A stretch of 32,039 bases of DNA from positions 1 to 32,039 of the IMG/VR virus record IMGVR_UViG_3300017605_000831; one strand, 5' to 3'. A program made the translations under genes and the position numbers. The stretch is from a virus. Under the pieces are notes generated by a model, which worked only from the letters and a program-made list of their open reading frames with translations, was not told the origin of the DNA and made no database searches. Positions 968 through 31,242 of the stretch are shown in pieces. The stretch's first letter is position 1, and each line of letters begins with the position of its first letter.

Positions 968-984
968 GTTGCCCGTGGCGGCTG

Positions 985-1115
985 TTCATCAATCGGTCGT
1001 TAGGTGGGATCGGTGAACGACCGGGCCCGGGTGGCCTTTTGGGCACCCGAAATCGTTCACCAAACGATTCATCAACTGGTATCGTTCAGGAACACCCCAA
1101 CTCTCCTTTGATGAA
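985..1115. repeat. Cluster of inverted and direct repeats upstream of the serine recombinase (possible res/crossover site or operator)
   Basis: Within 131 non-coding bases: TTCATCAA at 985-992 and 1068-1075, with its complement TTGATGAA at 1108-1115; a perfect 9-bp inverted repeat GGTGAACGA (1012-1020) / TCGTTCACC (1053-1061) enclosing a second stem CGGGTG (1028-1033) / CACCCG (1044-1049); and an imperfect dyad TCGTTAGGT (997-1005) / GGTGAACGA (1012-1020). TCGTT or AACGA occurs five times (997, 1016, 1053, 1063, 1082). Small serine recombinases bind paired inverted half-sites directly next to their own gene, and this layout fits such a site, although an ordinary operator is equally possible. 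Confidence 0.5.
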
Positions 1116-1126
1116 TACGAGATGAC

Positions 1127-1735
1127 ATGGCACTGATCGGACTCGTCCGCGTATCCACCGACAAGCAGAACGTCGACCGCCAGCACGACGCACTCGACCC
1201 CATCTGCGCCAAGGTCTTCGAAGAGAAGGTCTCCGGCAAGCTCACCGTCGCCGAACGCCCCGGCCTCAGCGCCGCCCTGGAATACCTCCGCAACGGCGAC
1301 ATGCTCTGCGTCCAGGAAGTCGACCGCCTCGGCCGCGACACCCTCACCGGACTGGTGACCCTCGCCGAACTCTTCAACCGCAGCATCGCCGTCAAGGTCC
1401 TCGAAGGCGTGGGCGCCGGCGAGCACAAGGAGATGAACCTCCTCCTGGAACTCGCCCTGGTCCTCGCCTCCGAGCGGCGCCGCGACATCGTCAAGAAGAC
1501 CAAGGACGGCCTCGAAGCAGCCCGCAAACGCGGCCGCGTCGGCGGACGCCGCCCGGTGATGACCGAGGCCCTGATGGTCCAGGCGGTGGCCCTACGAGAG
1601 AAGGGCTTCAGCATCCGCCAGATCCAGCCCCACCTCCGCATCGCGGAGGGGGCCAACAAGGGCAAGAACCCCAGCACCGGCGCCATCTCCCAAGCCCTGA
1701 AGGCCCACAACGAGACGAAGCAAGGTGCACGATGA
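1127..1735 (+). CDS. Small serine recombinase (resolvase/invertase family)
   Basis: A 202-residue site-specific recombinase. The N-terminal resolvase domain has the catalytic serine in VRVSTDKQ (Ser10, with Arg8), the conserved DRLGRDT block (Arg67, Arg70) and the long helix around SERRRDIVKKTKDGLEAA (about 115-132) that carries dimer contacts, followed by a GRVGGRRP linker and a C-terminal helix-turn-helix region (about 146-195). At about 200 residues it belongs to the small resolvase/invertase group, not the 450-600-residue phage serine integrases. It probably resolves multimers or inverts a segment. Starting at ATG 1127, it follows a symmetry-rich region that may be its recombination site. 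Its stop overlaps the next small gene (ATGA). Confidence 0.92.
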   Translation: MALIGLVRVSTDKQNVDRQHDALDPICAKVFEEKVSGKLTVAERPGLSAALEYLRNGDMLCVQEVDRLGRDTLTGLVTLAELFNRSIAVKVLEGVGAGEHKEMNLLLELALVLASERRRDIVKKTKDGLEAARKRGRVGGRRPVMTEALMVQAVALREKGFSIRQIQPHLRIAEGANKGKNPSTGAISQALKAHNETKQGAR

Positions 1736-2756: not shown

Positions 2757-3262
2757 CCGAGCCCGTCCGCAACAGCCAGGGCAGCTTCATCCGCGGCCCC
2801 GAAAAGGTCGACCACGACGCCCGTGCCGCCCAGCTCCGCGGCCAGGGGCTGTCGTACCGCGCCATCGCCGCCGCGCTCGGCGTGTCCGTCTCCAGCGCCC
2901 ACCAGGCCGTCGCCCGCGCGTTCCGCGACACCCTCACCGAACCCGCCGAACAGGCCCGCGCGGTGGAGTTGGCCCGGCTGGAGGACGCCCACGACGCCGC
3001 GCTCGCGGTACTCCTGCGTGAGCACGTCACCGTCTCCCACGGCAAGGTCGTCGTCGATGACGACGGCACCCCGATCCTCGACGACGCCCCGGCTCTCCAG
3101 GCTGTGGACCGCATCCGCGCCCTGTCGGAGTCCCGCCGCAAACTCCTCGGCCTCGACGCGCCGGCCCGTGTGAGCGTGGACGCCGAGAACATCGGCCGGG
3201 AAATCGGGGACCTGCTGACCGCCCTCGCCCAGAACGCTGCCGATGACCAGCCCGGCACCTGA
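2753..3262 (+). CDS. Terminase small subunit
   Basis: A 169-residue DNA-recognition subunit of the packaging motor. Start GTG 2753 is chosen because AAAGGAGG lies at 2739-2746, 6 bases upstream. Residues about 24-53 form a helix-turn-helix (LSYRAIAAALGVSVSSAHQAV), as expected for TerS binding at the packaging site. A central helical region (AVELARLEDAHDAAL) should mediate oligomerisation, and the segment ALQAVDRIRALSESRRKLLGL is typical of actinophage TerS proteins. The gene overlaps the start of the large terminase by 20 bases, the usual TerS-TerL order. The short C-terminal tail would contact TerL. Confidence 0.85.
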   Translation: MTEPVRNSQGSFIRGPEKVDHDARAAQLRGQGLSYRAIAAALGVSVSSAHQAVARAFRDTLTEPAEQARAVELARLEDAHDAALAVLLREHVTVSHGKVVVDDDGTPILDDAPALQAVDRIRALSESRRKLLGLDAPARVSVDAENIGREIGDLLTALAQNAADDQPGT

Positions 3263-4748
3263 CCTCGACCGGGTCCAGCAGCAGATCGACCAGCTGGTGC
3301 GCGCCGGCGACACCCGCCAGCTCAAGCTGCTGCGTGACTCCCTGAAGTCCCAGCTCGACCGGCGGACCCTCGCCGCACGCACCAGCAAGTACGGGGCGGA
3401 CCCGGTGCGGTGGGTCACCGAGCGACTGGGACAGATGGCGTGGTCGAAGCAGCGGGAGATCCTCAAGGCGATCCGCGACCACCGGCGGGTCGCTGTCCGG
3501 TCGTGCCACGGCGTGGGCAAGTCCCACATCGCCGCCGTCGCGGTGGCGCACTGGCTCGACACCCACCCGCCCGGTGAGGCGTTCGTCGTCACCACCGCAC
3601 CGACCGCGGCACAGGTCCGGGCGATCCTGTGGCGGTACATCCGCCGCAACCACAAGCGCGGCAAGCTCCCCGGCAGGGTGAACCAGACCGAGTGGTTCAT
3701 CGACGACGAGATGGTCGCCTACGGCCGCAAGCCCGCCGACCAGGACGAATCCAGCTTCCAGGGCATCCACGCCCGGTACGTCCTCGTCGTCATCGACGAG
3801 GCGTGCGGCGTCCCGGAGCAGCTGTGGATCGCCGCGGACGCACTGACCACCAACTCGGACTGCAGGATCCTGGCCATCGGCAACCCCGACAACCCGGCCG
3901 CGCACTTCCGGAAGGTGTGCATGCCCGGCTCGGGCTGGCACGTCATCGGCATCTCCGCCTACGACTCGCCGAACCTCACCAGCGAGGACGTACCCGAGGA
4001 GCTACAGCAGGTGCTGGTGTCCGCGTCCTGGGTGGAGGAGAAGCGCCGCGAGTGGGGCGAGGACAACCCGCTGTACCGGTCGAAGGTCCTCGGGGAGTTC
4101 GCCGACGACGCCCCGAACCAGGTGGTGCGCACGGCCGATGTGGCGGCCTGCCGCATCCCGTCCGATGTGGCGCCGGCGGAGGAGGAGTTGCTGCCCGTCG
4201 AGTTGGGCGTGGACGTCGGCGGCGGCGGCGACGAGACCGTGATCCGGGAGCGGCGTGGCCGGTGGGCCGGGCGGGAGTGGCGGGCGACCACGGACCGGCC
4301 GGAGAAGATCGCCCCGATGATCCTCGCCGCGATCCGCGAGACCGGGGCGACCGCGGTGAAGGTCGATTCCATCGGGATCGGCTTCGGTGTGATCGGGGAG
4401 CTGCGGAACCTCGCCAACCAGGGCACGCACCGGGCGCACATCGAGGCCGTGAACGTCGCGGAGCGGGCGTCCGAGCCGGACAAGTTCATCAACCTGCGGG
4501 CCGAGCTGTGGTGGCAGGTCGGGCGTGGCCTGTCCGAGCGGGGCGGGTGGGACCTGTCCGCGATGGCCAACGGGGATACGACGGTTGCCCAGTTGCTGGA
4601 GCCGCGCTGGTCGGTGGATCCGCAAGGGCGCATCCGGGTCGAGCCGAAGGACGACATCCGCAAGCGCCTCGGCCGCAGTCCCGATAATGCGGATGCTCTG
4701 CTGCTGGCGTTCTACAGCGCGGGCCGGCCGCGGATCCGCTGGATGTGA
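3243..4748 (+). CDS. Terminase large subunit (packaging ATPase/nuclease)
   Basis: A 501-residue packaging motor that pumps DNA through the portal and cuts concatemers. The N-terminal ATPase has a Walker A CHGVGKSH (Gly90, Lys93, Ser94), the VVTTAPTAAQVRAILW motif and a Walker B VLVVIDEA (Asp185, Glu186). The C-terminal RNase-H-fold nuclease shows the expected acidic residues: Asp324 in LGVDVGGGGDET, Asp375 in VKVDSIG and Asp484 in DNADALLLAF. Length and order of domains are normal and the protein looks intact. It starts at ATG 3243 within the TerS gene and overlaps a GTG of the following frame, though that gene probably starts at 4790. Confidence 0.95.
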   Translation: MTSPAPDLDRVQQQIDQLVRAGDTRQLKLLRDSLKSQLDRRTLAARTSKYGADPVRWVTERLGQMAWSKQREILKAIRDHRRVAVRSCHGVGKSHIAAVAVAHWLDTHPPGEAFVVTTAPTAAQVRAILWRYIRRNHKRGKLPGRVNQTEWFIDDEMVAYGRKPADQDESSFQGIHARYVLVVIDEACGVPEQLWIAADALTTNSDCRILAIGNPDNPAAHFRKVCMPGSGWHVIGISAYDSPNLTSEDVPEELQQVLVSASWVEEKRREWGEDNPLYRSKVLGEFADDAPNQVVRTADVAACRIPSDVAPAEEELLPVELGVDVGGGGDETVIRERRGRWAGREWRATTDRPEKIAPMILAAIRETGATAVKVDSIGIGFGVIGELRNLANQGTHRAHIEAVNVAERASEPDKFINLRAELWWQVGRGLSERGGWDLSAMANGDTTVAQLLEPRWSVDPQGRIRVEPKDDIRKRLGRSPDNADALLLAFYSAGRPRIRWM

Positions 4749-6516: not shown

Positions 6517-6804
6517 TCAAGCGCTCAGCTCGTCTGCCGTCTCGGTCGTGGCCGCCGCGACCTCCCGCAACAGCTGCGCGTACGCCGCCCGCTGATCCAG
6601 ACGTGGTTCGGTCTCGCCCCGCTCCCACCGGCTGACCGTCATCTGGCTCACGCCGAGCGCGCCGGCGAAGTCTTCGAGCGTCACGTGGGCCGCCCGCCGA
6701 ATGTGGGCGCGTGCGGCCGGAGATGGCAGCTGCGCCGCCCGCACTCTCCCGGCCAGCCCATCGACCCGCGAGGACGCTTCACCCTGCGCAGTGTTTACCT
6801 TCAT
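6517..6804 (-). CDS. XRE-family helix-turn-helix transcriptional regulator
   Basis: A 95-residue DNA-binding protein on the minus strand inside the head gene cluster. Residues about 30-67 form the HTH: IRRAAHVTLEDFAGALGVSQ, then MTVSRWERGETEPR, the classical Cro/CI-type fold with the SxxTVSRWExG recognition helix. The N-terminus is low-complexity and the C-terminus is Ala/Thr-rich, with no ligand domain. ATG 6804 has no Shine-Dalgarno sequence; a -10-like TACCAT (minus strand, 6818-6813) lies 8 bases upstream, so the mRNA may be leaderless. Inverted copies of GCGAATG overlap and flank this promoter, suggesting autoregulation. It may control the downstream capsid operon or only itself. Confidence 0.85.
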   Translation of the reverse strand: MKVNTAQGEASSRVDGLAGRVRAAQLPSPAARAHIRRAAHVTLEDFAGALGVSQMTVSRWERGETEPRLDQRAAYAQLLREVAAATTETADELSA

Positions 6805-7111: not shown

Positions 7112-8494
7112 ATGCCGTGGATTGAGGTCCCCGACTTCCAGCCCAAGCGGCCGGTGCAGGCCCGGGCGCAGGCGCAGGGCGAGCGTCGCTGGTACACCAT
7201 CAGGAACGCCGCTTCCGCAGACGAGGCGGAGTTGCTGCTGTACGACGAGATCGGGGGCTGGTTCGGCGCGACCGCCGACCAGTTCGTGGACGACCTCAAG
7301 GCCGTGACCGCCCCGAATATCCGCGTCCGCATCAACTCCCCTGGCGGGTCCGTGTTCGAGGGCCTGGCCATCGCCAACGCCCTGCGCGCACACCCCGCGA
7401 ACGTCACCGCCCAGATCGACGGGCTCGCCGCATCCATCGCGTCCGTGATCGCCATGGCCGGTGACCGGCTGGTGATGATGCCGAACAGCATGCTGATGAT
7501 CCATGACGCTTCCGGGCTGTGCGTGGGCGACGCCGCCGAGATGACCAAGATGGCCGAGGTCCTCGGGCTCATCTCCGACAACATCGCCGACGTCTACGCC
7601 ACCAAGGCCGGCGGCACCCGCGAGCAGTGGCGCGACACGATGCGCGCGGAGACCTGGTACCTGCCCGAGGACGCCGTCAAGGCCGGGCTCGCCGACGAGG
7701 CCGTCCCCGGGAAGGCGCCCGCCGAGGGCGACCCGGAGATGCACGCCGCCTACGACCCCGCCGTGTACGGCTACCACGGCCCGGCGCAGCCCGAGCGGCC
7801 CAAGCCCGGCCCGCCCCCGGCGAAGGCGCAGACCGAGGAGCCCGCGCCGGCCGCGCTCACCATCAGCCTCGGCGACGCCGTCGGCGAACAGCTTGTGGCC
7901 GCGCTCCGGGCCTCCGTCAAGGCCAACGCGGCGATCGCGGACACCGCGTCGTCCGTGCACCACACCGCCACCACCGACGCGGCCTGGGACGGCCCCGCCG
8001 CAGTGGCCGCGATGCCCAACGAGGAATCCGTGCTGCGGTACTGCCACGCCTGGTACGACCCGGACGGCGACCCCGACGCGAAAGCCTCCTACCGGTTCCC
8101 GCACCACAAGACCAAGGGCGGCCCCGCCAACCTCGCCGCCTGCCGCAACGGCCTCGCCCGCCTCGACGGCTCCAACATCCCCGACTCGGAGAAGGCCGGC
8201 GTCCGCCGCCACCTGCAAGCACACCTCGATGACGCCAAGGGCAACGCGGACGACACCGCCCCGGCCGAGGCGCTCGGCGAGCACGGACAAGAACCGCCCA
8301 GCTCCGACCCGCGGGGCGCCGGCGAGTCCGGTGCGCCCGACGCGGAGCCGGCGCCCATGGCAGTCGCCTCCGAGCCGGCCGAGCCTACGTGGGCCGATGT
8401 CGTCTCCCGCCTCACCAACGGCCAGCCCACCACCTGGGCCGGGGCCATCCAACGTCTGACCCGTGCCTCGTCGTCCAGCGCGACGGAATCCTGA
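7112..8494 (+). CDS. ClpP-like prohead (head maturation) protease
   Basis: A 460-residue serine protease that trims head proteins during maturation. Residues about 20-200 have the ClpP/crotonase-like fold: VRINSPGGSVFEGLAIANAL, the nucleophile motif DGLAASIASVIAMAGD (Ser108 the likely nucleophile), and MLMIHDASG (His131). An acidic residue in RAETWYLPEDAVKAGLAD (near 180) could complete the triad. The remaining 260 residues are linker-rich and include a domain with LRYCHAWYDPDGDP and YRFPHHKTKGGPANLAA, a pattern seen in phage protease/scaffold fusions, so the C-terminus may act as scaffold. It starts at ATG 7112 after AGGGAGG and precedes the capsid gene by 10 bases, the normal order. Confidence 0.92.
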   Translation: MPWIEVPDFQPKRPVQARAQAQGERRWYTIRNAASADEAELLLYDEIGGWFGATADQFVDDLKAVTAPNIRVRINSPGGSVFEGLAIANALRAHPANVTAQIDGLAASIASVIAMAGDRLVMMPNSMLMIHDASGLCVGDAAEMTKMAEVLGLISDNIADVYATKAGGTREQWRDTMRAETWYLPEDAVKAGLADEAVPGKAPAEGDPEMHAAYDPAVYGYHGPAQPERPKPGPPPAKAQTEEPAPAALTISLGDAVGEQLVAALRASVKANAAIADTASSVHHTATTDAAWDGPAAVAAMPNEESVLRYCHAWYDPDGDPDAKASYRFPHHKTKGGPANLAACRNGLARLDGSNIPDSEKAGVRRHLQAHLDDAKGNADDTAPAEALGEHGQEPPSSDPRGAGESGAPDAEPAPMAVASEPAEPTWADVVSRLTNGQPTTWAGAIQRLTRASSSSATES

Positions 8495-8504
8495 GGAGGA
8501 ACCA

Positions 8505-9854
8505 GTGGCACTCACCCTGACCGTCCCGCGCAACGCCGACGAGCTCGCGGAGATGATCGGCGACATGGGCAAGCTTGCCCAGATCACCGAGAGCCCCGAG
8601 GTGTTGACACAGTTCATCGACGCCTACGGGCAGAAGCAGCGCACCGCGGACCCGGGCATCGAGCAGCAGATCCGGGACGAGACACAGCGCCAGTTCGCCG
8701 ACGTCCTGCGCAACGGGCAGATCGACGCGATCAACCGCCTCAACCTCACCCCCGGGGACATCCCGCAGGCCCGGTCCAAGCACTACAACCCGAAGGCCCC
8801 CGGAGCCAAACTCGACCAGCAGTACCAGAACTGGGCCGACTACTTCGGCACCACCTGGACGGGCAACACTAGCGCGGAGGCCCTTGCCGGCCGGTCCGAG
8901 ATCACCCGCATCCAGAACTCGTTCGGGTCCACCGTGCCGTCCGACGGCGGGTTCCTGATCCCGGAGGTGCTCCGCGCGGAGCTGTTGCGGGTCGCCCTGG
9001 AACAGTCCGTCGTGCGGAAGAACGCACGCGTGGTACCGATGGAGTCGCTTACCGTCCCCTACCCGATCCTCGACTCCACCAGCAACGCCAACTCCGTGTA
9101 CGGCGGCGTGATCGGCTACTGGACGGAAGAGGGCGGAACCCTCACCGACTCCTCGCCGACCTTCGGCCGGATCGTACTCTCGGCGAAGAAGCTGACCCTG
9201 TACAGCGAGATCCCCAACGAGCTGTTCTCCGACTCGCTGATCTCCGTCCAGCAGTTCATGGCCGAGTCCTACCCCGAGGCGCTGATGTGGTTCGAGGACT
9301 GCGCGTTCACCGACGGCAACGGCGTCGGGCAGCCGCTCGGCTACCTCAATGCCCCGGCCGCCGTGTCGGTGGCGAAGGAGTCCGGCCAGCCGGCGGCCAC
9401 GATCGTGTGGGAGAACATCGTCAAGATGTACGCCCGCATGCTGCCCTCCTCGATCTCGCGGGCGGTGTGGGTCATCAACAACGACGCGTTCCCCGAGCTG
9501 GCCACCATGGCCCTGTCGGTGGGCACCGGCGGGTCCGCGATCTGGATCGGCGACGGCGGTGGCGAGGCTACTCCGCCGATGCGCATCCTCGGCCGCCCGG
9601 TCATCTTCACCGAGAAGGTCAGCTCGGTTGGCACCGCGGGCGACATCAACTTCGTGGACTTCGGCTACTACCTCATCGGTGACCGGCAGGCCATGCAGAC
9701 CGCCACCAGCACCGAGTTCAAGTTCGGCGCGGACAAGACCTCGGTGCGCGTCATCGAGCGGGTCGACGGCACCCCGTGGATCAAGTCCGCGATCACCCCC
9801 CGCAAGGGCGGCAACACCCTGTCGCCTTTCGTCAAGGTCGCCACCCGCTCCTGA
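8505..9854 (+). CDS. Major capsid protein (HK97 fold)
   Basis: A 449-residue capsid subunit. Start GTG 8505 is supported by AGGAGG at 8494-8499, 5 bases upstream, overlapping the protease stop. The first ~110 residues (ELAEMIGDMGKLAQITESPE, EQQIRDETQRQFADVL) are helical and charged, like the HK97 delta domain that serves as an internal scaffold and is removed by the protease. The remainder shows HK97-family features: STVPSDGGFLIPEVLRAELL, a beta-rich E-loop region (VYGGVIGYWTEEGG), ELFSDSLISVQQFMAE, FTDGNGVGQPLGYLNAP, and WVINNDAFPELATM followed by PVIFTEKV. Immediately downstream of the protease, as expected. Confidence 0.94.
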   Translation: MALTLTVPRNADELAEMIGDMGKLAQITESPEVLTQFIDAYGQKQRTADPGIEQQIRDETQRQFADVLRNGQIDAINRLNLTPGDIPQARSKHYNPKAPGAKLDQQYQNWADYFGTTWTGNTSAEALAGRSEITRIQNSFGSTVPSDGGFLIPEVLRAELLRVALEQSVVRKNARVVPMESLTVPYPILDSTSNANSVYGGVIGYWTEEGGTLTDSSPTFGRIVLSAKKLTLYSEIPNELFSDSLISVQQFMAESYPEALMWFEDCAFTDGNGVGQPLGYLNAPAAVSVAKESGQPAATIVWENIVKMYARMLPSSISRAVWVINNDAFPELATMALSVGTGGSAIWIGDGGGEATPPMRILGRPVIFTEKVSSVGTAGDINFVDFGYYLIGDRQAMQTATSTEFKFGADKTSVRVIERVDGTPWIKSAITPRKGGNTLSPFVKVATRS

Positions 9855-23810: not shown

Positions 23811-24776
23811 ATGGACACATCTCACGGCCTCGATGTCTCGTCCTACCAGGGCGTCCAGGACTGGGCGGGCTTGGCCAGGTCCGGGCTGACGTTCGCGTTC
23901 GCCAAGGCGTCCGAGGGCCAGCACTCGCGCGACGGCAGGTTCGACACGCACATGGCCGGGATCATCAAGGCCGGCCTGGTGCCGGGTGCGTACCACTACG
24001 GCTGGCCATCCCAGAGCCCGGACGCCGAGGCGGCGAACTACATCGCCGCCGTGAAGCCCTACGCGCGGCGCGGGTTCATCCACGTCCTCGATCTGGAACG
24101 GCGCTCCGACGGCGCGAACTACGCGGGGCGCACCTCCGGGCAGATCCGGGAGTGGGCCGAGACCTGGGTCACCCGCGTGCGGGCCGCGTTCCCCGGGCAG
24201 CGCGTCATCGTCTACACCTCGGGCGACGACATCAAGACCGGCCGCGTGCCCGCCAGCACTGACGGCCTGTGGTACCCGGCGTACCCGTCGGGCGCGATGA
24301 CCTACGAGCAGGCCGAAGCCTGCGCCTGGCCCGCACCGTCCGGGAAGCACCCGCTGTTCTGGCAGTTCACCAGCACCCCTCTCGACCGCAACCTCGCCTG
24401 CCTCCCCCCGGCCGCGCTGCGCGCCTGGGCGGCGGGCGACACCACCCCGGAGGACACCGACATGCCCCTGACCGACGCCGAGTGGACCAAGCTGCGCGCG
24501 ATTGTCCGCGAGGAGCTGGCCGGCCTGCTCACGACCCGCCTGCCGAACATCGCCGACCCGGCCAAGACCCTGTACCTGCGCGACCACCTCCGCGGCGAGG
24601 GCCTGGCCGCCGTCGTGCGGGCACAGGGCGCCGCGCAGACCGCCGCGATCAAAGCACTGGCCGCACAGCTCGGTGAGGACGTCGACACCGACACGGTGGT
24701 CGCCGCGATCCAGAAGGCGATCTCGGAGGCCGTCGTCCACGTCGACGTGGACGTCACCGGACCGGCGGCCGGCTGA
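23811..24776 (+). CDS. Endolysin, GH25 lysozyme with helical C-terminal domain
   Basis: A 321-residue cell-wall hydrolase cleaving the glycan strand of peptidoglycan. Residues 1-205 are glycoside hydrolase family 25: HGLDVSSYQG (Asp8), FAFAKASEGQ, PGAYHYGW, and HVLDLERR with the catalytic Asp94/Glu96 pair, then VIVYTSGDDI and LFWQFTSTPLDRN. Residues about 215-321 are a mostly helical domain (TDAEWTKLRAIVREELAGLL, ALAAQLGEDVDTDTVVAAIQ) that may bind the wall or oligomerise; no LysM or SH3 repeats are visible. No signal peptide, so a holin is needed for export. Start ATG 23811 after GAGGAGG. Its TGA overlaps the next ATG. Confidence 0.92.
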   Translation: MDTSHGLDVSSYQGVQDWAGLARSGLTFAFAKASEGQHSRDGRFDTHMAGIIKAGLVPGAYHYGWPSQSPDAEAANYIAAVKPYARRGFIHVLDLERRSDGANYAGRTSGQIREWAETWVTRVRAAFPGQRVIVYTSGDDIKTGRVPASTDGLWYPAYPSGAMTYEQAEACAWPAPSGKHPLFWQFTSTPLDRNLACLPPAALRAWAAGDTTPEDTDMPLTDAEWTKLRAIVREELAGLLTTRLPNIADPAKTLYLRDHLRGEGLAAVVRAQGAAQTAAIKALAAQLGEDVDTDTVVAAIQKAISEAVVHVDVDVTGPAAG

Positions 24777-28316: not shown

Positions 28317-28940
28317 TCAGACTCCCTGGATCTCGTCGATGAGCTGCCACACTCCGCTGCTGGGATTGCTGGCCGCGGGGGAACCGTCACCTAAGTGCTT
28401 GGCTTCGAGCGCCAGGGCGCGTTTCTTGGCTGCGGCGAACCGTTCCGGGAGGGCGAGGGCTTTCAGTGCCGCTTCGGTGAGGTTCTTGTCGCAGCCCAGG
28501 TGGCCGCTGGCAGCACGCTGGGCGTCGTGGCGGTGTATGTCCCCGGTCTGGTCCTGAAAGTGCAACAGGAACCACAGCTCCAGGCAAGGATTCGAAAACG
28601 CCGTGCGGATGTCGTGCCTTCGGGCCAGGTCGAAGGCTTCCGACAGTTTGGGGTGTTCGTCGCGGTCGAAGATGCACCAGACCTGGTCGTGCGCCCGTCC
28701 GCGCCCCCTCTTCTCCTCCCGGGCCTCCCGCCGCACGACCCGGACGGCTTCCTCCACGAGGGTGAGCGGGGTGCCGTGTCCGGGGAAGAACTCGACGTTC
28801 ACCCGGTGCCGGTACCGGCGGTGCCAGTCCGTTAAGTACTGCCTCTCGGTGGCTTCGCCCTCCGCGAAGACGAGCAGGCTCAGGCGCTGGGCGGAGCGTG
28901 ACGGGGTTCGGCGCGGGGGGCCGGATCTGCCATGGCTCAC
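28317..28940 (-). CDS. rloB: RloB-like Toprim-domain protein
   Basis: A 207-residue protein starting at a GTG overlapping the TGA of the upstream ATPase gene (GTGA), so translationally coupled. The N-terminus carries LSLLVFAEGEATERQYL (Glu27) and later VWCIFDRDEHPK (Asp92, Asp94): the EGxTE and DxD pair of a Toprim-like nuclease site. The segment RTAFSNPCLELWFLLHFQDQ (about 112-131) is the RloB signature, and the C-terminal half is helical with conserved basic residues. RloB proteins pair with RloA-type ATPases; by analogy with Gabija and PARIS, where an ATPase activates a Toprim nuclease, this may be the effector. Activity and target are inferred. Confidence 0.85.
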   Translation of the reverse strand: MSHGRSGPPRRTPSRSAQRLSLLVFAEGEATERQYLTDWHRRYRHRVNVEFFPGHGTPLTLVEEAVRVVRREAREEKRGRGRAHDQVWCIFDRDEHPKLSEAFDLARRHDIRTAFSNPCLELWFLLHFQDQTGDIHRHDAQRAASGHLGCDKNLTEAALKALALPERFAAAKKRALALEAKHLGDGSPAASNPSSGVWQLIDEIQGV

Positions 28941-30301
28941 GCGGGCCCGCCGGAGGTCGCGGGTGCGGTTGCGGCGGCGAAGTCCCCGGCGGACAGGATC
29001 GGAACCGCCCCGTAGCGGCCGGCCAGGTAGCGGCGGGCGATCGCCTCCTCCTTGCGGGGGTCGAGGTCGGCCAGGGCGAACAAGTCGGTGTTGCCGTCGT
29101 TGTACTTCTCTGCGAACCACACCTGGTCGCGTCCGATGGGGCGCTCGTTGACGGAGTCGCCCATCAAGGTCACGTCGTGTGAGTTGAAGATGAGCTGGGC
29201 GTGGCGGGGGTTGGTTTCCGGGTCTTGGAAGAGCTGGACCAGCTGAGAGGCGAGGGCTGGGTGGAGACTCGCGTCGAGCTCGTCGACCAGGAGGACTGAC
29301 CCTTGGGTCAGGGCTTGGATCGCGGGGCCGGTGAGGCCGAACCATACGAGGGTGCCTAGGGATTCGTCGTCGGTGGTCATCTCGACGTCGCCGGCGGTAC
29401 CGCGGTGGATCAGGTTGGTGTCGAGGGTTTCGAGGTCCGGGATGTCGGCGTCGCTGCCGTCGTCGTCTTCGCGGCGGGAGTGGGCACGGAATATTTTTTG
29501 CATCGCCTCCCGCATCGCCTCTCGGATCACCGGGTCCATCTCCCGCCGGTTGGCGCCGGTGATTCCCAGATCTGCTGCGCGCAGGAGGTCCAGGACTTGG
29601 GGGCGGCGCGTTTCGTCCTCCAGTAGCTGCCGGGTCACTGTCTGCCGGAAGGTCCGGGTGCGCGCGTCGGCGAACACCAGGTTCTGCTCGAACCATGTGT
29701 ACAGCGGCAGGAGGTCCGGGTGGCCCGCCGATGCCGCCGTGGACAGGAACAGGGCGTTCGGTCGCAGCAGCGTCTTGACTGCCTCACCCCGGGGGCGGTT
29801 GCTCGCCCCGAGGTTCACCTGGTCGCCGGTGCGGTCGAACAGGAGTGCGGCGCGGCCGTGTGGGTATCGGACGGCCCGCTCGCTCACGACTTTCTGGTCG
29901 TCCACGGTGAAGCCGTAGCTGTGGCGGACGCCGCTCAGGATCAGGTCGATCTCGAACCGGGACGGTGCTTGCCGGGCCTGCGGGTCCAGGAGGAAGGGGC
30001 GCCGGGGGACTCCTCCGCCCGGCATGCCCATCCGGAAGGAGTGCAGGACCAGCCCCTGCATGTCGGCCATGGCTTTGAGTACGTTCGTTTTGCCCGAGGC
30101 GTTGGCGCCGAAGATGCCCGCCACTGGCAGGACATCGATCGTCCGGCCGCCGGACCGCCAGACCACTTTTCGTACCGCCGACTTCTCGGCGAGGCTTGTC
30201 GCCAGGAGGGACAGCCCCCACTCGCCGCGGAAGGATCGGATGTTCTCGGCCTGGAATGACAGGAGGGCCGAAGTGTTCGGCAACTCATCGACCTTGTCCA
30301 C
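28937..30301 (-). CDS. rloA: RloA-like ABC/AAA_15-type ATPase
   Basis: A 454-residue ATPase from GTG 30301. Architecture: ALLSFQAENIRSFRGEWGLS (SMC/RecF-like opening), Walker A GIFGANASGKTNVL (Lys71, Thr72), a long regulatory insert (about 80-300) including DDDGSDADIPDLETLDT, signature-like DDESLGTLVWFGL (about 312-323), Walker B SVLLVDELDASLHPAL (Asp340, Glu341) and switch histidine in IFNSHDVTLM (His375). This is the OLD/AAA_15 family, typical of phage-defence ATPases. The start is supported by coding similarity from VDKVDELPN and by a -10-like AAATAT ending 7 bases upstream with TTGATG 17 bases before it, suggesting a leaderless mRNA; an upstream start is possible. It overlaps the RloB-like gene. 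Confidence 0.85.
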   Translation of the reverse strand: MDKVDELPNTSALLSFQAENIRSFRGEWGLSLLATSLAEKSAVRKVVWRSGGRTIDVLPVAGIFGANASGKTNVLKAMADMQGLVLHSFRMGMPGGGVPRRPFLLDPQARQAPSRFEIDLILSGVRHSYGFTVDDQKVVSERAVRYPHGRAALLFDRTGDQVNLGASNRPRGEAVKTLLRPNALFLSTAASAGHPDLLPLYTWFEQNLVFADARTRTFRQTVTRQLLEDETRRPQVLDLLRAADLGITGANRREMDPVIREAMREAMQKIFRAHSRREDDDGSDADIPDLETLDTNLIHRGTAGDVEMTTDDESLGTLVWFGLTGPAIQALTQGSVLLVDELDASLHPALASQLVQLFQDPETNPRHAQLIFNSHDVTLMGDSVNERPIGRDQVWFAEKYNDGNTDLFALADLDPRKEEAIARRYLAGRYGAVPILSAGDFAAATAPATSGGPA

Positions 30302-30335
30302 GCGGCGATATTTGCAGGAAACCCGCACAGCATCA
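30302..30335 (-). promoter_or_regulatory. Putative promoter of the RloA/RloB-like operon
   Basis: On the minus strand, TTGATG is followed after 17 bases by AAATAT, then six bases to the GTG at 30301. The spacing suggests transcription starting at or next to the GTG (leaderless), which is common in actinobacteria. The -10 match is weak (3 of 6), so this is tentative. The upstream gene ends in a strong terminator 130 bases away, so a separate promoter is needed. Confidence 0.35.
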
Positions 30336-30436
30336 AGGCTGGTTCCGGTCGGACATCCGTTTGGCGGTCCCGTGCCCGGATCATGCGGGTGCGCTGGCGC
30401 CGGTGTCGGGGCTGCCGCTGCTGGCGCCGGCCCCGG

Positions 30437-30478
30437 GGTGTGGGTTCGCGCCGAAAATTTCCGGCGCGAACCCACACC
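30437..30478. terminator. 17-bp-stem terminator with AAAATTTC loop
   Basis: Perfect inverted repeat GGTGTGGGTTCGCGCCG (30437-30453) and CGGCGCGAACCCACACC (30462-30478), loop AAAATTTC. The stem begins 2 bases after the stop codon of the leftward gene at 30481. It should end that transcript and isolate the ATPase operon. Confidence 0.75.
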
Positions 30479-30480
30479 GG

Positions 30481-31242
30481 TCAGCCTGCGCCCGGGCCGA
30501 GGAGTTCGCCGTCCAGGGCGGCCAGCCGCAACCGGGCCCGGGGCAGGGCGGGTTCCTTCCCGGGGATGGGCCAGTCGTCGGCGCACAGGCCGTACCGCTT
30601 CGGCGGCTCCCAGCGGCTGCGGGCCACATTCGACCCCCAGGCGTACAGCCGCGTCCAGCCCTCATCGCCCGTCTTGAGCACCAGGAACGAGGGCAGCAGG
30701 CCGCCGCGATTGGGGATCGGCTCGGGGAAGTCCATGGCGCGCAGGGCCGCCGTGCATGCCTCGCCGTAGGCGTGGTGCCGGGAGCAGTACCAGATCGGCG
30801 TGTGCCATCCCGTGACCGGATCGACGTTGAACGACTTGGCGGTTGCGCGTTGGCCGCACTCGCCGGCGCGGCGGACCATCGGTGCGGAGCACCGGTCTTC
30901 GTGCCAGATTGCTTCGCTCTTGTCCGGCTCGTAGCGGGGTCGGTCTGCGTCGATGAGTAGCGCGGTCTGCGAGCGCCCGAGGACGTCCAGCCCGAGTATC
31001 TTCTCGGAGCGGTCCCACGTGCTGATGTAGGTGCCGTCGTTGTCGTAGCGGGCGGGGTCTCGCTTGTTCAGCCACGCGAGCAGCAGGATCAGTTCGCGGG
31101 ACTCCGACGTCATCCGCTTGTCGCGGTAGACCTGTTCCACCAGTGTGTCGTAGCCGTCGTCGCCTCCTCCGCCGCCTTTGCGTTTCCGCTTGGGGCCGGG
31201 TGGGGCCTGGTGGACTTCGGCGAGGTGGAGTGCGGCGCCCAT
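30481..31242 (-). CDS. Cys/His-rich conserved hypothetical protein
   Basis: A 253-residue protein; ATG 31242 follows AAGGAG on the minus strand (31253-31248). The N-terminus is basic and Gly-rich (PKRKRKGGGGGDDGYD), followed by a helical segment YRDKRMTSESRELILLLAWL and NKRDPARYDNDG. The middle has RCSAPMVRRAGECGQRATAK and TPIWYCSRHHAYGEACT, which supply at least five Cys and two His suitable for a zinc site. The end contains LLPSFLVLKTGDEGWTRLYA and WGSNVARSRWEPPKRYGL. Similar proteins occur in Streptomyces mobile elements; function unknown. It diverges from the lipoprotein gene across a repeat-rich region. Confidence 0.75.
   Translation of the reverse strand: MGAALHLAEVHQAPPGPKRKRKGGGGGDDGYDTLVEQVYRDKRMTSESRELILLLAWLNKRDPARYDNDGTYISTWDRSEKILGLDVLGRSQTALLIDADRPRYEPDKSEAIWHEDRCSAPMVRRAGECGQRATAKSFNVDPVTGWHTPIWYCSRHHAYGEACTAALRAMDFPEPIPNRGGLLPSFLVLKTGDEGWTRLYAWGSNVARSRWEPPKRYGLCADDWPIPGKEPALPRARLRLAALDGELLGPGAG

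Follow-up and report, generated by a model that had tools for sequence, protein, structure and literature searches.

The window analysed here, 32,039 bases in length, is an entire IMG/VR record that is classed as linear and is probably a fragment of a phage genome. It encodes a tailed phage, Streptomyces-type accessory genes included. A large terminase (3243-4748) with a probable small-terminase gene directly before it, a major capsid protein (8463-9854, PF05065) and a GH25 lysin (23811-24776) were located, and no tyrosine integrase was found in this probable fragment. A two-gene pair on the minus strand (28317-30586) matches AbiL and is a candidate phage-borne anti-phage defence system; one gene encodes the AAA ATPase AbiLi (E=2.5e-84) and the second RloB/AbiLii (PADLOC E=2.3e-24, Pfam RloB 1e-34). 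A 95-aa HTH_3 regulator is also encoded on the minus strand (6517-6804), where it separates the portal gene from the protease gene within the plus-strand structural operon.

Near the left end of the window, a small serine recombinase gene is preceded by a putative res-like site. The features of this locus are as follows.

983-1123, plus strand: full extent of the res-like site, matched by a 24-locus sequence model (77 bits, E=6e-23) that matches nowhere else in the window
984-1009, plus strand: predicted crossover site I, 26 bp, with dyad symmetry
984-995: left arm of site I, GTTCATCAATCG
996-997: central dinucleotide of site I, GT
998-1009: right arm of site I, CGTTAGGTGGGA, degenerate in the window phage (6/12 arm matches)
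1010-1054: spacer of about 43 nt, free in sequence and fixed in length; it includes GGTGAACGA, which forms the left arm of a 9-bp inverted repeat
1055-1059, plus strand: predicted half-site F2 (GTTCA), exactly 12 bp before F3 in 32/32 loci
1067-1075, plus strand: predicted half-site F3 (ATTCATCAA; GTTCATC.A in most relatives), from the alignment
1084-1088, plus strand: predicted half-site F4 (GTTCA), 17-18 bp after F3
1107-1116, minus strand: predicted inverted half-site R5 (TTTGATGAAT), 24-26 bp downstream of F4 and immediately ahead of the translation start region
1127-1735, plus strand: small serine recombinase, predicted resolvase, 202 aa, intact ORF

The recombinase has the resolvase N-terminal catalytic domain (PF00239, E=1.6e-26) and matches phrog_125 with E=5.5e-42. 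The full ORF is kept, in agreement with the sequence-only reading, which had called the recombinase intact. The catalytic residues R8, S10, D66, R67 and R70 are invariant in 28 homologues, and the length of 202 aa is also that of a small serine recombinase. Among relatives the dN/dS values were 0.01-0.30, which indicates purifying selection. The nearest solved structures are Gin (4m6f, 1.5e-24) and the Tn3/gamma-delta resolvase. The AlphaFold model of the recombinase was too poor to be informative (mean pLDDT 68.6, pTM 0.44), and a Foldseek search found nothing with E below 0.001. Compared with an Actinocorallia relative (L028), the recombinases of Streptomyces phages have a helix-turn-helix whose turn is longer by about 10 residues, yet the DNA site is similar.

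Close relatives of the recombinase, about 60-89% identical, were found in 19 viral contigs and at most of 12 genome loci, mainly Streptomyces prophages. They were present in 9/393 Streptomyces genomes. The phage collection contained no recombinase match at 60% identity or above, and the matches listed there were Cin- and Gin-like invertases near 37-41%.

The DNA directly upstream of the gene is rich in repeats. The sequence-only reading had counted five TCGTT/AACGA pentamers and three octamers, and the recount gave the same numbers: TCGTT occurs three times (997, 1053 and 1082) and AACGA twice (1016 and 1063), while TTCATCAA lies at 985 and 1068 (3 copies in the whole 32 kb) and TTGATGAA at 1108, its sole copy in the window. 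The perfect 9-bp inverted repeat that it had reported is also present, but there are two of them instead of one, GGTGAACGA/TCGTTCACC at 1012-1020/1053-1061 and ATTCATCAA/TTGATGAAT at 1067-1075/1108-1116. In 5000 dinucleotide shuffles of 985-1126, any pentamer reached 5 copies with p=0.04, any octamer reached 3 copies with p=0.003, and any 9-bp inverted repeat appeared with p=0.05. With p values of about 0.003-0.05, the repeat signal in the window itself is thus only moderate.

The decisive evidence came from homologues, whose conserved upstream DNA confirms at the sequence level that the site is real. We aligned the upstream DNA of 32 loci and found that conserved and free segments alternate, which revealed a modular site within 150 bp upstream of the recombinase that is kept in more than 30 relatives. 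The conserved boxes reach about 1.2-1.5 bits per column across the 32 loci, compared with 0.29 in the spacer and 0.24 outside the site. F1 and the start of F2 are 69-71 bp apart in 32/32. A free sequence with a fixed spacer length is the pattern expected from a protein-DNA assembly with defined geometry. The sequence-only reading had named a lack of repeats beside homologous recombinases as evidence against its proposal; instead, they are kept at fixed spacing in all 32 aligned homologues, and the site is also detected beside three plasmid cousins. An intrinsic-terminator-like hairpin was seen by eye just left of the site in several loci (L010, L017, L021 and L025).

The consensus of site I is GTTCATCAATCG-GT-CG..., with CG-NN-CG around the central dinucleotide. 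In 34 sequences, dyad symmetry computed at the CG-NN-CG centre averaged 8.0/12 arm matches, and other centres within 20 bp gave 1.7-4.3. The central dinucleotide is GT in 27/34 and AT, CT, AC or AG in the others. Such variation is expected if the crossover overlap needs to match only between partner copies. In the window, the degenerate right arm (6/12) of site I could weaken this copy. Among the predicted accessory half-sites, F2, F3 and F4 share one orientation, head to tail, and the inverted R5 follows, so that the conserved order is F-R, then F-F-F-R, with six half-sites over about 133 bp.

This layout was compared with those of known resolution sites. Tn3 res has three dimer sites over 114 bp and no architectural protein (PMC9943657), and its length is similar to the 133 bp here. 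In tnpR-res of Tn3/gamma-delta, site I is an inverted pair of roughly 26-28 bp around a central dinucleotide; the predicted site I is by computation such a pair, and in both systems the accessory sites, predicted here, are placed between it and the start of the gene. In contrast to Tn3/gamma-delta, where sites II and III are each an inverted pair, three half-sites are head to tail here, and the locus has no transposase. In Sin res, site I is inverted and site II is head to tail; these two dimer sites occupy 86 bp and act together with HU (PMC2428073). The predicted head-to-tail half-sites F2, F3 and F4 may resemble those of Sin and of beta recombinase resH, which are used for plasmid dimer resolution, depending on which pair binds a dimer, but six conserved half-sites over about 133 bp differ from two dimer sites in about 86 bp. 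The predicted half-site order therefore matches neither the Tn3 nor the Sin layout.

Another reading is that a Tn3-family transposon left its resolvase behind and that the gene now serves no function. In line with this, Tn3-family transposases flank a cousin on plasmid NBC_00842. Nevertheless, this reading is highly unlikely and was rejected, since the linked transposase of Tn3/gamma-delta was found in 0/20 viral records; strong purifying selection and the intact catalytic residues also speak against it.

Plasmid cousins provided a held-out test of the site. Their recombinases are 58-68% identical, and their translated C-termini are without the about 10 extra helix-turn-helix residues of the phage family. 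A site model made from the sequences of 24 phage loci was run on these cousins, which were outside the model. It found the site on three actinobacterial plasmids, L053 (E=3e-18), L055 (pXL100, 3e-9) and L056 (6e-8). In L053 and L056 the site is directly upstream of the recombinase, and in L055 it precedes a small ORF adjoining the recombinase gene. The plasmid recombinases, of pXL100, Nocardia sp. NBC_01377 and Streptomyces sp. NBC_00842, thus combine a related enzyme with the same predicted site and differ from the phage systems in their plasmid carriers. In the Arthrobacter cousin L054 the model detected no site, which counts against a resolution function. On plasmids, multimer resolution is a usual role of such recombinases.

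The number of sites per genome was also determined. In all 20 viral records a single recombinase is accompanied by a single strong site. The 8 whole genomes likewise contain one strong site apiece, and the few additional matches are weak. A weak second site in S. atratus (G025:C76) is located just upstream of a diverged relative of the recombinase, which supports the link between site and enzyme. These counts bear on the proposal that the recombinase is a DNA invertase of the Gin/Cin/Hin type which switches a tail gene or another gene. The closest named families, phrog_125, Gin and Cin (38.6%), are in its favour. However, Gin and Hin act, with a Fis-bound enhancer, on two inverted crossover sites flanking a switchable segment, whereas here we found one site per record or genome (the window being incomplete), upstream of the gene and without a second inverted copy, and the accessory half-sites are unlike invertase sites. 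We consider an invertase very improbable. The inversion role suggested by the sequence-only reading thus gained no support, and the second copy of the repeat pattern that it had advised looking for did not appear either: the site model matches once in the incomplete window, and the relatives have one strong site each.

Delimited lysogens were informative about integration. The prophage ends of three lysogens are direct att repeats of 75-160 bp, at 400838-400941/465678-465781 in S. rishiriensis, at 274431/360666 (75 bp) in S. olivaceus and at 223994-224152/280454-280612 in Streptomyces sp. NBRC 109706. In each of them a tyrosine integrase adjoins one att repeat, and the recombinase with its unbroken site persists about 3.4, 7 and 18 kb inside the prophage. 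The idea that the recombinase serves as the phage integrase, with an attP in front of the gene that encodes it, was prompted by the DNA left of the site, which differs between loci and is unrelated; the dyad site adjoining the recombinase also fits it. But the site of such an enzyme is split at the prophage ends as attL and attR, while the site here is internal and intact in the three lysogens, and a tyrosine integrase is present in 8/19 records. An integrase function is extremely improbable, and the unusual integration system raised by the sequence-only reading is refuted for the family by these three lysogens.

The position of the site relative to the packaging genes was considered as well. 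In P1, lox lies near pac, and Cre is a phage-borne recombinase that reduces genome dimers. In a similar way, two sites in the terminally redundant ends of packaged DNA might recombine and circularise the incoming genome. This would use the same direct-repeat substrate, and in the window about 1.7-1.8 kb separate the site from the probable small-terminase gene downstream. However, in the three relatives where the large terminase was located, it is 21-28 kb from the site, and the two redundant ends would then seldom both contain the site. For this reason P1-like circularisation was set aside as improbable. Cre also differs as a tyrosine recombinase with a 34-bp site in a plasmid prophage, whereas here a serine recombinase with predicted accessory sites is found in integrating phages.

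Comparison between loci showed how the cassette is distributed. DNA similarity is usually limited to about -148 to +600 of the start codon, with unrelated flanks. The left edge of similarity is the border of site I in most close pairs, and the right edge, at the gene end, is equally sharp. The structural proteins of the window have few matches in six related prophages. These results are best read as a cassette of about 750 bp that has been shuffled among unrelated Streptomyces temperate phages. The limits of similarity, with the left edge at site I, could also come from recombination between sites on different phages, which would swap the flanking accessory genes. But the right edge is just as sharp without a site, so functional boundaries alone explain the limits, and res-type sites normally suppress intermolecular reactions. 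Such exchange is therefore quite improbable. Downstream of the recombinase, accessory regions at about 8342-9391 in L011 and about 11384-12286 in L024 appear by eye to encode ATP-dependent DNA ligase-like and Ku-like proteins.

Multimer resolution is textbook for serine resolvases of plasmids and transposons, and res-type sites limit recombination to direct repeats in one supercoiled molecule, as dimer resolution needs. We consider it probable that the locus is a res/resolvase multimer-resolution cassette in a temperate Streptomyces-type phage. The resolution role that the sequence-only reading had listed first fits the res-like multipart site, its single copy per phage and the same predicted site on plasmid cousins. 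A precedent exists in Salmonella genomic island 1 (SGI1), which is integrated at attB and, once resolution is restored, eliminates tandem multimers by res/resolvase (PMC12217951). Like the phage loci, where the site is predicted, SGI1 is a chromosomally integrated element with a serine resolvase and a multipart res (PMC12217951), but it is a mobilisable island with a Tn3-like res, in contrast to the phage carrier and the different predicted half-site order of these loci. The res-like anatomy, a crossover site and accessory half-sites before the gene start, together with this precedent favours resolution of circular dimers and tandem prophages. Other observations count against it: no multimeric or tandem prophage was seen, the degenerate right arm may weaken the site of the window, and the half-site order is unlike the characterised res sites compared, by their published descriptions.

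Under multimer resolution, circular dimers of the phage genome or tandem prophages would provide two direct copies of the site. Dimers of the recombinase would occupy site I, through its inverted pair, as well as the accessory half-sites F2-F3-F4-R5, and the two copies would then synapse. Cleavage of both at the central GT of site I, staggered by 2 bp, would be followed by strand exchange, which would convert the multimer to monomers. Recombination at the site may thus be selective for resolution and would benefit the phage by keeping prophages single-copy and circles monomeric.

No res/resolvase multimer-resolution system was found in any deposited phage genome searched, and the open-licence literature searched held no report of one in Streptomyces phages. 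We tentatively propose, as one possibility, that these loci combine a new res layout (an inverted crossover pair, then three head-to-tail and one inverted half-sites) with recombinases that keep integrating actinophages single-copy per cell, in a mobile cassette of 750 bp. Intermediate between the Tn3 and Sin types, the predicted layout could help to explain how resolvases are controlled by the geometry of their accessory sites, and the recombinase family with its defined crossover core (CG-NN-CG) could serve as a resolution tool in Streptomyces. The wide sharing of a probable resolution cassette among temperate phages that integrate suggests a cost of phage genome dimers or tandem prophages high enough for counter-selection.
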